Shown here: one piece after another, positions 14,540 through 17,246 of the stretch | How positions within the stretch are numbered: the stretch's first letter is position 1 | Layout of the letters: every line of letters starts with the position of its first letter | Assembly: GCA_030591105.1 (NCBI GenBank) | Contig: JAUVBS010000006.1 | Span: 1-17,736, forward strand | DNA: 17,736 nucleotides | Source of the DNA: a bacterium | GTDB lineage: Bacteria > Krumholzibacteriota > Krumholzibacteriia > LZORAL124-64-63 | Direction: 5' to 3' | The notes under the pieces: model-generated | Database searches by the model: none | Told to the model about the DNA's origin: nothing | The model's input: the letters and a program-made list of their open reading frames with translations, nothing else | Translations under genes and position numbers: made by a program

Positions 14540-14565
14540 ACCGAGCCCCGTCCCGGGGTGCCGGT
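14540..14565 (+). terminator. GC-rich stem-loop after glnA
   Basis: CCCCG (14546-14550) and CGGGG (14554-14558) form a tight hairpin with a TCC loop, flanked by ACCG (14540-14543) pairing with CGGT (14562-14565). It starts 17 nt after the glnA stop. There is no U-run after it, so intrinsic termination is uncertain; 3'-end protection is an alternative. Confidence 0.35.
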
Positions 14566-14611
14566 CTGCGTACCATCAAGCCGAAGTGGGGGCGACAAGG
14601 ACACCACGGCC

Positions 14612-15040
14612 ATGCTGAATCCGGGTCTAGTAGCCGTTGCCAGCGGGTTGGCGGCGCAGGCGGCCAAGGTGGTGGTGGAGCTGTTCGTTCGCCGCCGCTG
14701 GCGTCCCGCGCTGTTCTTTTCCTCCGGGGGTATGCCGAGTTCCCACACCGCGACGGTGACCACGCTCAGTTGGCTGGTGGCCCGTCAAGAAGGGGTGGAT
14801 TCGTCGGTTTTCTCGTTGGTGTTGATCTTCAGCATCTACGTGGTTTTTGAAGCGACCGGTTTGCGGCAGGAGGTAGGCAAGCAGGCCGAACTTCTCAACG
14901 ACCTGATGGACCGGGTCATCGCCACCCATCATCTGGACCACCACCGGTTACGCGAGTTGGTGGGCCATACGTGGCTCGAGGTCGTCGTCGGCTTTCTTTT
15001 CGGTTTGGTGTTCACCGCGCTCTATCTGCGATTGGGTTGA
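14612..15040 (+). CDS. Divergent PAP2 (DUF212/YuiD) family membrane protein
   Basis: This 142-aa protein carries the DUF212 signature SSGGMPSSHTATVTTLSW (37-54), FEATGLRQEVGKQAELLNDL (about 79-98), and LRELVGHTWLEVVVGFLFGLVF near the C terminus, with about three to four membrane segments. The family is distantly related to PAP2 lipid phosphatases and vanadium haloperoxidases. Its substrate is not established. ATG 14612 gives the expected N terminus (membrane helix about residues 5-25). The ribosome site is weak (AAGG at 14597-14600), and a GTG at 14558 opens the same frame but adds a non-conserved stretch. It lies between glnA and the parA promoter and probably forms its own unit or is read from glnA. 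Confidence 0.85.
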   Translation: MLNPGLVAVASGLAAQAAKVVVELFVRRRWRPALFFSSGGMPSSHTATVTTLSWLVARQEGVDSSVFSLVLIFSIYVVFEATGLRQEVGKQAELLNDLMDRVIATHHLDHHRLRELVGHTWLEVVVGFLFGLVFTALYLRLG

Positions 15041-15095: not shown

Positions 15096-15124
15096 TTGAC
15101 AGTGTTTTCATCTCTCGACATGAT
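15096..15124 (+). promoter_or_regulatory. Strong sigma70-type promoter for the parA-CBM48 operon
   Basis: A perfect TTGACA (15096-15101) and CATGAT (15119-15124, four of six consensus bases) are separated by the ideal 17 bp. Transcription would start near 15131, leaving a leader of about 117 nt before ATG 15248. This separates the ParA unit from the DUF212 gene. A short GGCG/CGCC hairpin followed by TTTT (15060-15079) just upstream may be a weak terminator for that gene. Confidence 0.6.
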
Positions 15125-15247: not shown

Positions 15248-16321
15248 ATGAGAGTCATAGCCGTTGCCAATCAAAAAGGAGGGTGCGGGAAGACGACCAC
15301 TGCGACGAACCTCGCCGCCGCCCTCGCCCGACTGGAAAAACGAGTTCTCCTGGTGGACAACGATCCCCAGGGGCACGCCACCCTCGCGTTCGGTTACCGC
15401 GAACGCGATTTCACCCTCAGCACCTACGATCTCTACCTGACCACCGATGTCCTCGTCGAGGATGCATTCCTCGAGATCGAACCGGGCCTGCATCTGGTGC
15501 CGGCCGGTGTCGAATTGAGCGCGGTAGAACAGGTGCTGGCCCGCGAACCCGAGAAGGAATTGCGGCTGCGCAGTAGCTTGCAGCGATCCAGCATGCCGTA
15601 CGACTACGTGCTGATCGATTGTCCACCGAGTGTGGGACTACTCACGTTCAACGCGCTGCTGGTCAGCAGCGAAGTGATCATTCCGGTCGATCCCAGCGGA
15701 TACAGTCTGCAGGCGGTACGCAAGCTGAAAGAGACGCTCGTGGTTTTGCGCGATAAGAAGGGCCACGACGTCGTTCCTCACGTGTTGATATCCGATTTCG
15801 ATACGCGGCCGCGTTTCTGCCACACCTTGATCGAGGAACTCCAGGCGCTCTACGGAGACGAACTGCTGGACACCATGATCCACCACACGGTCCGCTTCAA
15901 GGAGGCGGCGGGCAGCGGCCAACCGGTGGTGCGTTACGATGCCGGCTCGCGTGGGGCACTCGATTTCCGCAACCTCGCCAGCGAACTGACGGCGCAGGAA
16001 ACCGACTTGACCGTGACTACCCTAGACCACTGGGTAGCGATGCTCCACGGGCCGCGGGTCACAGCAGAGAGCGTCTGCTTCGTGGCCGATTTCCCGCGGG
16101 CGAGGAGCGTGTGCGTCACCGGCGGCTTCTGTGCTTGGTCGGCCAAGGGGGTTGCCATGTTGCGGCGCTCCGACGGACTCTGGGAGTGTGAGATCGCCTT
16201 GACCGAGGGCGATCACGAGTACCGCTACATTGTGGATGGAGCTTGGCTACCCGACCCGCATAACGATGCAGTCGTGGCGAACGAGTTCGGTGGTGCCAAC
16301 AGCCTGATCACCGTGCCGTGA
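15248..16321 (+). CDS. ParA-family ATPase fused to a C-terminal CBM48/AMPK-beta glycogen-binding domain
   Basis: Residues 1-253 are a complete ParA/Soj-type ATPase: deviant Walker A NQKGGCGKTT (K10 signature lysine, K15), VDNDPQGHATL (36-46), Walker B VLIDCPPSVG (121-130), VDPSGYSLQAVRKL (147-160). The Soj-like C-terminal stretch TVRFKEAAGSGQPVVRYD (214-231) includes R216, the position of the non-specific DNA-binding arginine. Residues about 273-356 are a CBM48-type early-set domain: VCVTGGFCAWS, LWECEIALTEGDHEYRYIVDG, WLPDPHND, NSLITV. W297, R326, W333 and N351 occupy the places of the glycogen-binding W100, K126, W133 and N150 of AMPK-beta, so binding looks retained. ATG 15248 has GAAAGGA 7 nt upstream. 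No parB or parS is nearby. A role in polysaccharide-granule positioning is inference. Confidence 0.9.
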   Translation: MRVIAVANQKGGCGKTTTATNLAAALARLEKRVLLVDNDPQGHATLAFGYRERDFTLSTYDLYLTTDVLVEDAFLEIEPGLHLVPAGVELSAVEQVLAREPEKELRLRSSLQRSSMPYDYVLIDCPPSVGLLTFNALLVSSEVIIPVDPSGYSLQAVRKLKETLVVLRDKKGHDVVPHVLISDFDTRPRFCHTLIEELQALYGDELLDTMIHHTVRFKEAAGSGQPVVRYDAGSRGALDFRNLASELTAQETDLTVTTLDHWVAMLHGPRVTAESVCFVADFPRARSVCVTGGFCAWSAKGVAMLRRSDGLWECEIALTEGDHEYRYIVDGAWLPDPHNDAVVANEFGGANSLITVP

Positions 16322-16337: not shown

Positions 16338-17246
16338 GTGTCGAGCGTCGGATGTCGGACCGGGGGCAGCCACCACATTGCCGATGTCGTCCATCACTTT
16401 CTGAGCGATGGCCACGGCGAGTGCTCGCGCGGGACGCCGGCGGCCGAAACCGGTAGCGCGCCGGTACGTTTTTTTGCTGTCGCCGCGGCGGGACGTAATC
16501 CGACCGCCGCGGTCGCTGCGGCGGGTCTGGCCACCGGGATCGTTCCGGAGCTACGCGGTGACGTCCGCCAGCGCACGGCAGTGTTCCTGCGCGAGAGGCC
16601 GGGCCAGCGGTGGTCGGCTTTCAATTATTTGCACGGTCGCGACGCCGATGGTTCGCAGCGGGTCGTCGATTCTACCCACGGTGGGTCCCGACAGGGCGGA
16701 TGTGCCGGACTCGGTGGCGGTCTGATCGTGGCGGGGCGGGTCGTCGCCGGGCGGCCTCTTACCGAACCGCTGCCGGTGGTCAACTGGTGGAACCTGGGGC
16801 CGCTGGACGCGGCCCGGCTGGCCGACCTGGAGGCTGCGAGGAGTTGGCGTGAAGAAATCGGTTGCCCTGTGGCCGGCCGTGACGGTCTGGTCTGGTGCCT
16901 GCTGCCGCACGAGGTCGGTTCGTACCGGTGTGCCTATGCGTTGGGACGTCTGGCGGCGGCTTGCCGTCCGCGTCGGGTCGTGCTGTTGATCTTCCCCGAC
17001 TGCCGGGCGACCGCGGCTGTAGCTCGAGCTGTCCCTTCGGCCGCGACGACCGACCTGTCGGCGGTGGATCGCTCGGCGGCGTGGCTGCGGCGCTGCAGTG
17101 CATTGGCGGAGGCGGTCCTGCCGCGGGTGCCGGTCACCGCCGTGTACCTCGGTTGCAGTTCCAGCGACGGTTGCCAGGTCGAAGAGTCAGTAGCCGCGGG
17201 TTTGGGACGCGTCGCGCACAGCTTGCTCGCTTCGTCGCGTTCGTAA
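16338..17246 (+). CDS. Unrecognised Cys-rich protein, partner of the ParA-CBM48 gene
   Basis: I cannot assign this 302-aa protein to a family. GTG 16338 is preceded by GAGGGGGT (16325-16332) and lies 16 nt after the ParA-CBM48 stop, so the genes are probably co-transcribed. Visible features are an amphipathic N-terminal helix (HIADVVHHFLSD, 13-24), a hydrophobic strand plus Ala-rich helix (VRFFAVAAAGRNPTAAVAAAG, 43-63), and a strand PRRVVLLIFPD (211-221) with helices after it. VPVTAVYLGCSSSDG (264-278) follows. It has eleven cysteines and no signal peptide or clear membrane helix. The 47-65 segment sits in the same strand-loop-helix pattern as the ParA P-loop (AVA...LA, equal spacing) but lacks the glycines and lysine. 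It might be a degenerate P-loop protein, which is weak. Its job may be partner or adaptor of the ParA. Confidence 0.7.
   Translation: MSSVGCRTGGSHHIADVVHHFLSDGHGECSRGTPAAETGSAPVRFFAVAAAGRNPTAAVAAAGLATGIVPELRGDVRQRTAVFLRERPGQRWSAFNYLHGRDADGSQRVVDSTHGGSRQGGCAGLGGGLIVAGRVVAGRPLTEPLPVVNWWNLGPLDAARLADLEAARSWREEIGCPVAGRDGLVWCLLPHEVGSYRCAYALGRLAAACRPRRVVLLIFPDCRATAAVARAVPSAATTDLSAVDRSAAWLRRCSALAEAVLPRVPVTAVYLGCSSSDGCQVEESVAAGLGRVAHSLLASSRS

Follow-up and report, generated by a model that had tools for sequence, protein, structure and literature searches.

Proteins that place storage bodies over the bacterial nucleoid are among the closest described counterparts of the locus presented here. PhaM, PhaF and PhaH on polyhydroxybutyrate (PHB) granules and AlgP on polyphosphate (polyP) granules each combine, in one protein, a storage-granule end with a non-specific DNA-binding end that spaces granules on the nucleoid, and in the McdA–McdB system of carboxysomes it is McdB that binds the organelle (both from a recent review of organelle positioning, PMC13052382). 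Carboxysomes, magnetosomes, and PHB and polyP granules are all treated in that review, whose text never uses the word glycogen. In E. coli, glycogen gathers passively at the old pole and displaces the nucleoid (PMC12706056). We analyzed a 17,736-nucleotide stretch of a Krumholzibacteriota genome (contig JAUVBS010000006.1 of assembly GCA_030591105.1; hereafter the window), in which a single gene encodes a Soj-like ParA ATPase and, beyond a disordered linker, an AMPK-beta-type CBM48 domain. Our searches of open-access full text turned up no description of a ParA-CBM48 fusion or of ParA-driven placement of glycogen, in line with an earlier reading of the DNA letters alone (the original prediction), which knew of no such system.

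The fusion shares with PhaM, PhaF, PhaH and AlgP the pairing of a storage-granule end with a DNA-binding end in a single protein, both ends being candidates here, but those proteins are not ParA homologues, their use of ATP is unknown (PMC13052382) and their polymers are different. Whereas McdB binds the carboxysome (PMC13052382), the fusion carries its own candidate cargo domain. Compared with the Soj/ParA of chromosomal ParABS systems, the fusion has a CBM48 of its own, a cysteine in its Walker A motif (KGGCGKT) and no parS in the window; moreover, the adaptors scanned beside it lack a ParB body, and the same genome has a separate Soj-ParB pair. Relative to the glycogen-binding domain of AMPK-beta, the CBM sits here on a ParA and not on a kinase subunit. 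BcsQ is likewise a ParA/MinD ATPase tied to a polysaccharide pathway, but it has no CBM and ranks well below Soj in a fold comparison of the ParA domain. To our knowledge, McdA has no cargo-binding domain of its own.

The logic that we propose for the fusion is that of a PhaM-like tether with an ATP switch and a ParB-type off-signal. We tentatively favor, at slightly under an even chance, a mechanism in which a ParA/MinD-type positioning ATPase with a built-in cargo module tethers alpha-glucan to the nucleoid and is released by a ParB-like adaptor peptide. ATP-bound dimers would sit on the nucleoid via the ParA DNA-contact arginines, and the flexible linker would let the C-terminal CBM48 hold a body of glycogen or amylose-like alpha-glucan. 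A cognate adaptor, encoded by the next gene, would then offer its ParB-like N-terminal peptide to bring about ATP hydrolysis and release. In this way glucan bodies would be held on the nucleoid, kept apart and distributed along it. Sequence and models show a ParA fold that retains its catalytic and DNA-contact residues, an AMPK-type CBM48 fold that likewise retains its contact residues, conservation of the fusion, and a downstream gene that recurs with a ParB-type N-terminal motif; glucan binding, activation by the adaptor, the identity of the cargo, and spacing or inheritance as the purpose are our inference.

Table 1. Features of the fusion locus in the window.
Feature	Position	Strand	Details
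ParA-CBM48 fusion gene	15248..16321	+	357 aa, ATG start, stop at 16319-16321
ParA/Soj-type ATPase domain, residues 1-250	15248..15997	+	deviant Walker A KGGCGKT (K10, K15), D39, Walker B D124, R187 and R216
Linker, residues 252-267	16001..16048	+	predicted local distance difference test score (pLDDT) <50
AMPK-beta-type CBM48, residues 285-356	16100..16315	+	W297, R326, W333, N351
Adaptor candidate	16338..17246	+	302 aa, GTG start 16 bases past the ParA stop, N-terminal SHHIADVVHHFLS followed by a rapidly evolving domain that matches no Pfam family in this copy
DUF212 'divergent PAP2' membrane protein gene	14558..15040	+	PF02681, 1.4e-38
Sigma-70-like promoter match	15096..15124	+	TTGACA-17-CATGAT, consensus match only

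Both domains lie in a single unbroken frame. The ATPase part matches Pfam AAA_31 over residues 1-170 (2.5e-46), and a sequence search of the PDB matches it to the ParA 8ray (3e-48, residues 2-251). In an alignment of 32 fusion sequences drawn from 87 homologous clusters, with the query included in the count, K10, K15 and D39 are unchanged throughout, and R187 and R216 fall opposite two arginines of 8ray, those in its FDSR and NVRL segments. In Soj, the equivalent arginines contact DNA. The protein thus has the signature-lysine Walker A, the fold and solved relatives, and the basic DNA-contact positions of Soj-type ParA ATPases; a PHROGs search returned only the general ParA family, and Pfam also gives a BcsQ match (2.1e-17). 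Two of the fusion proteins, P0015 and P0044, read KGGCAKT in place of KGGCGKT.

The C-terminal part scores above the cut-off for AMPK1_CBM (PF16561, residues 285-356; 2.5e-11, 44.1 bits against a cut-off of 26.8) and just under it for CBM_48 (PF02922; 9.1e-4, 20.0 bits against 22.4). Its match in the PDB is the CBM of AMPK-beta2 (4y0g, 3.5e-8, residues 285-356), and the predicted model of the domain superposes on the AMPK CBM at 1.2-1.3 Å. The contact residues W297, R326, W333 and N351 are unchanged in all 32 aligned fusion sequences. Across 49 ParA-linked CBM domains from many phyla, both tryptophans are invariant (49/49 each), position 326 is arginine or lysine in 46 and N351 is kept in 40. 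Profile, fold and the W, K/R, W, N contact residues are all those of CBM48/AMPK1_CBM. The original prediction of a ParA with an intact Walker A and DNA-binding arginine region, running in one frame into a CBM48 with these four residues retained, is borne out by profile searches, by domain order across genomes and, as far as a model allows, by superposition on the AMPK-beta domain.

We found the same domain order well beyond the window. Searching with just the CBM portion of the fusion protein returned 87 clusters, nearly all of about 357 aa, with PF16561 in 86 and the ParA profile PF13614 in 85, so the fusion is not due to chance. Searches from two relatives gave 233 proteins (from a member of family f5; nearly all of the best 120 of the 233 carry both domains) and 88 proteins (from a Desulfobacterota-like member; nearly all among the matches listed carry both). 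The family profile is matched at E up to 1e-60 in 62 of 80 Krumholzibacteriota genomes, in some through fragments where a contig breaks off. When named genomes were scanned by pattern, at least 570 relatives emerged, of which the best 80 were kept as loci; these carry the titles of Krumholzibacteriota, Eisenbacteria, Latescibacterota, Omnitrophota, Planctomycetota, Desulfobacterota/Deltaproteobacteria, Myxococcota, Acidobacteria, Gammaproteobacteria, Nitrospirae, Rokubacteria and Auribacter, with full-length fusions in about ten groups beyond Krumholzibacteriota and Omnitrophota. The named records encountered are bins assembled from metagenomes. The CBM motif was recognized by pattern in 79 of the 80, and the sequence of the last has the motif too. 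Among 236 Omnitrophota genomes, tallied by hand, 147 match at E <1e-100; another 67, with E from 1e-70 to 1e-99, are for the most part unfused Soj with some uncertain cases, and 22 have no match. We therefore rejected a single-assembly artefact, as the fusion recurs in homologous clusters, in the phylum's genomes and in other phyla. To judge from its sequence distribution, the ParA-CBM48 fusion is ancient and widespread.

Among 122 ParA domains placed in one tree, the 30 canonical Soj proteins form a single clade (100/97). The branch dividing the fusion from Soj has a support of only 30/91, so a single origin of the fusion has no firm support. Three loci titled Methanomassiliicoccales, Planctomycetales and Gemmatimonadales (L128, L126 and L085) fall in this tree with Desulfobacterota, Omnitrophota and Krumholzibacteriota, respectively, and are probably misnamed bins. 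Separately, genome G074 carries two fusion paralogues (L075, L076), one followed by a stand-alone 111-aa CBM48 (AMPK1_CBM 1.5e-17) like that of genome G079. Many Krumholzibacteriota genomes also contain open frames, roughly 900-1300 aa long, in which AMPK1_CBM stands in tandem arrays of as many as five copies (L194-L209, for example L197 and L199).

The commonest neighbour of the fusion is a candidate adaptor with a ParB-type N-terminal motif. In Krumholzibacteriota, the gene next to the fusion encodes about 270 aa and opens with a short conserved motif (HHISSIAHHFLS, NLRDVSHLFLS and similar); an eye-fitted pattern finds it in 34 of 41 loci, or 37 with three added at a second look, leaving out a pattern match in the wrong frame (L067) and L073, which ends too early. 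In the window adaptor, this motif is worn to HHIADVV. In four lineages it reads LGRGL(E/A/S)(D/E)(V/I)S..FLS, literally the ParB-type ParA-binding motif LGRGLEDVSHLFLS; L156 and L136 come from lineages with LGRGL. Chromosomal ParB N-termini of Krumholzibacteriota, which the adaptor motif matches, read KKVLGRGLEALIS, and the ParB of the window's own genome carries VLGKGLSALIPG. In Myxococcus xanthus ParB, the Leu, Arg, Leu, Leu and Ile positions of Leu-x-Arg-x-Leu-x-x-Leu-Ile bind and activate ParA (PMC12462528). A survey of ParA/MinD systems assigns the ATPase-specific contact to charged partner N-termini and the cargo-specific role to the remainder (PMC10241942).

The clearest test of this motif is an exact pattern: LG[RK]G[LI] occurs within the first 70 residues of only 4 of the 1776 open reading frames (ORFs) of the best 80 loci. 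In each case that ORF follows the fusion gene immediately, from a 1-base overlap to 48 bases away, and the four represent four lineages. A position-specific scoring matrix (PSSM) of ParB motifs puts four adaptors among the top 14 of the 1776 ORFs, with unrelated ORFs scoring equal or higher. A broader motif, shaped on these same loci, is found at 20 of 38 loci and, among the other ORFs, in 28 of 864. It is absent from 18 of the 38 loci outside Krumholzibacteriota and Omnitrophota. In Omnitrophota the downstream gene lacks a ParB-type motif; in many of their loci an upstream membrane protein begins MDKKDIYEHLAKIYLD, a weaker likeness.

Behind the motif, the adaptors vary. By hhalign, the versions of different families are homologous (96.7% and 97.8%). 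The f2/f3 profile matches the ParA profile at 91%, and the f2 version, with a CbiA match of 1e-3, is a decayed MinD/ParA; for the f5/f6 profile, the probability of a match to ParA is only 9%. In other lineages, the same position holds MinD-like bodies in L095 (CbiA 6.6e-10), L108 and L117, a MerR-like helix-turn-helix (HTH) plus RodZ_C in L121, and bodies without Pfam match in L102 and L156. A PDB profile search with the adaptor alignment gave no matches up to E 1, and a PHROGs search with the adaptor gave nothing. Apparently, a ParB-type peptide has become detached from ParB and been reused on varied proteins. Inside the window's adaptor ORF, at 16449-16465, lies a terminator-like stem with a T tail; two such elements were found in the window and 2.2 in shuffles.

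This variety also bears on a reading in which the protein is a carbon-status sensor and not a mover, its CBM48 reading free glucan ends to gate the ATPase and the adaptor's variable effector domain reporting carbon status. A constant sensor with varied outputs would explain why the effectors differ by lineage (decayed MinD, HTH plus membrane segment, others), and the CBM is of the AMPK type, as in AMPK-beta. We nevertheless consider a sensor unlikely, since a positioning system would call for just such ParA-type DNA-contact residues and a ParB-type adaptor peptide, and a sensor here would have no known output target.

The downstream gene also qualifies the claim that neither a ParB gene nor a parS site accompanies the fusion. 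The window indeed has no ParB, and no parS-like 16-mer with up to 3 mismatches occurs in its 17,736 bases, but a candidate ParB-like adaptor is encoded right behind the fusion and a Soj-ParB pair lies elsewhere in the genome. Beside the fusion there is no ParB DNA-binding/CTPase body: the downstream protein has no Pfam match, and its relatives are MinD-like or without a match. The window's genome has four ParA-family places, one of them a Soj directly before ParB that adjoins an rsmG-like sequence, and ParB is found in 71 of 80 Krumholzibacteriota genomes. We therefore rejected the fusion as the chromosome-partition ParA. Another ParA of this genome (L003, G000:C469), with TKGGVGKT and a small downstream ORF, stands apart from both Soj-ParB and the fusion, on a long branch of the tree.

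Alpha-glucan genes neighbour the fusion at 15 of 120 loci (14 distinct), several of the alpha-glucan queries having come from the scanned loci themselves. In G079, behind the fusion come the stand-alone CBM48, a pair of synthase-like genes of GT4/GT5 type, a GH57 branching enzyme, a glucan phosphorylase, another GH57, a GH77 and a GlgX-like gene. Of the 28 Omnitrophota loci, 10 have a GH57 gene immediately upstream of the fusion (10 of 21 if only loci with at least 2.3 kb upstream are counted), as does L126; L128 has GlgB immediately downstream, and in L121 a GlgB gene is convergent with the fusion. Queries with classical GlgA and GlgP gave no match in the 120 loci. Most of the 38 family f1 genomes have GlgA and phosphorylase; 36 lack GlgB (1e-40) and 31 lack GH57 (1e-20), so the glucan of this family may be little branched.

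Several observations weigh against a strictly glycogen cargo. Association of the fusion with glycogen synthase is weak: in Krumholzibacteriota, counting fragments, 52 of 62 fusion genomes have the synthase, as do 12 of the 18 that lack the fusion (p 0.18); the corresponding figures for Omnitrophota are 141 of 147 and 76 of 89 (p 0.006, or 0.009 by threshold, uncorrected for kinship). Among other fusion genomes, 38 of 49 have it; it was found in none of the six Phycisphaerae fusion genomes. G074, whose two fusion copies lie on one contig, shows no GlgA over the cut-off and no phosphorylase, GlgB, GH57 or GH13 at the thresholds used, an absence that is not proof, as the same scan missed the divergent GlgX-like gene of G079. 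Nor are the contact residues discriminating: 56 of 56 ordinary CBM48 copies of the same phylum, mostly from tandem arrays, keep W, K, W and N, although a profile built from the ParA-linked domains served to retrieve these controls and biases them towards likeness. W297, R326, W333 and N351 are therefore compatible with glycan binding, and we rejected their conservation as discriminating evidence.

Finally, the f1 and f4 loci carry, behind the adaptor, an O-antigen ligase (Wzy_C 1.4e-11, 8.1e-16) and GT4 and WecA/MraY-type transferases (1.2e-32, 9.1e-31), and these genes make an envelope role conceivable. Here the ATPase would position or gate a glycan assembly complex, with CBM48 on a non-glycogen glycan, much as BcsQ is found at cellulose synthase. 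A weak GNVR match behind the adaptor of L034, the PAP2-related DUF212 membrane protein upstream of the fusion in 32 of 41 Krumholzibacteriota loci and the BcsQ match in Pfam point the same way; the alpha-glucan neighbours listed above do not, and we regard this role as improbable. Least probable of all is that CBM48 serves as an interaction or dimerisation module without glycan ligand on an ordinary ParA for another cargo, for although fold alone does not fix a ligand and some fusion genomes have no detected glucan pathway, W297 and W333 are invariant across many phyla and alpha-glucan genes adjoin some loci. For the glycogen or polysaccharide cargo first proposed, then, the alpha-glucan neighbours of some copies speak in favour, whereas strict glycogen is strained by the fusion genomes without glycogen synthase and by the f1/f4 envelope-polysaccharide neighbours.

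Upstream of the fusion, the strong promoter ascribed to it comes down to one match at 10 of 12 consensus positions where 0.4 would be expected by chance, a weak basis for calling it strong.

Returning to the tethering mechanism, we consider it plausible, on somewhat less secure ground than the mechanism itself, that these loci represent an ancient, widespread positioning system for alpha-glucan stores, whose adaptors share a ParB-type activating peptide and exchange effector domains. If true, ParA/MinD ATPases would gain a new class of cargo, and active spacing or inheritance of glycogen would have its first described machinery. The reused ParB-type peptide of the adaptor family bears on how ParA/MinD systems acquire new cargo. 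Overall, our analysis suggests active positioning or sharing of sugar stores in some bacteria, and such a ParA, with its glycogen-binding module built in and kept in many phyla, would open the active placement or inheritance of bacterial glycogen to direct testing.
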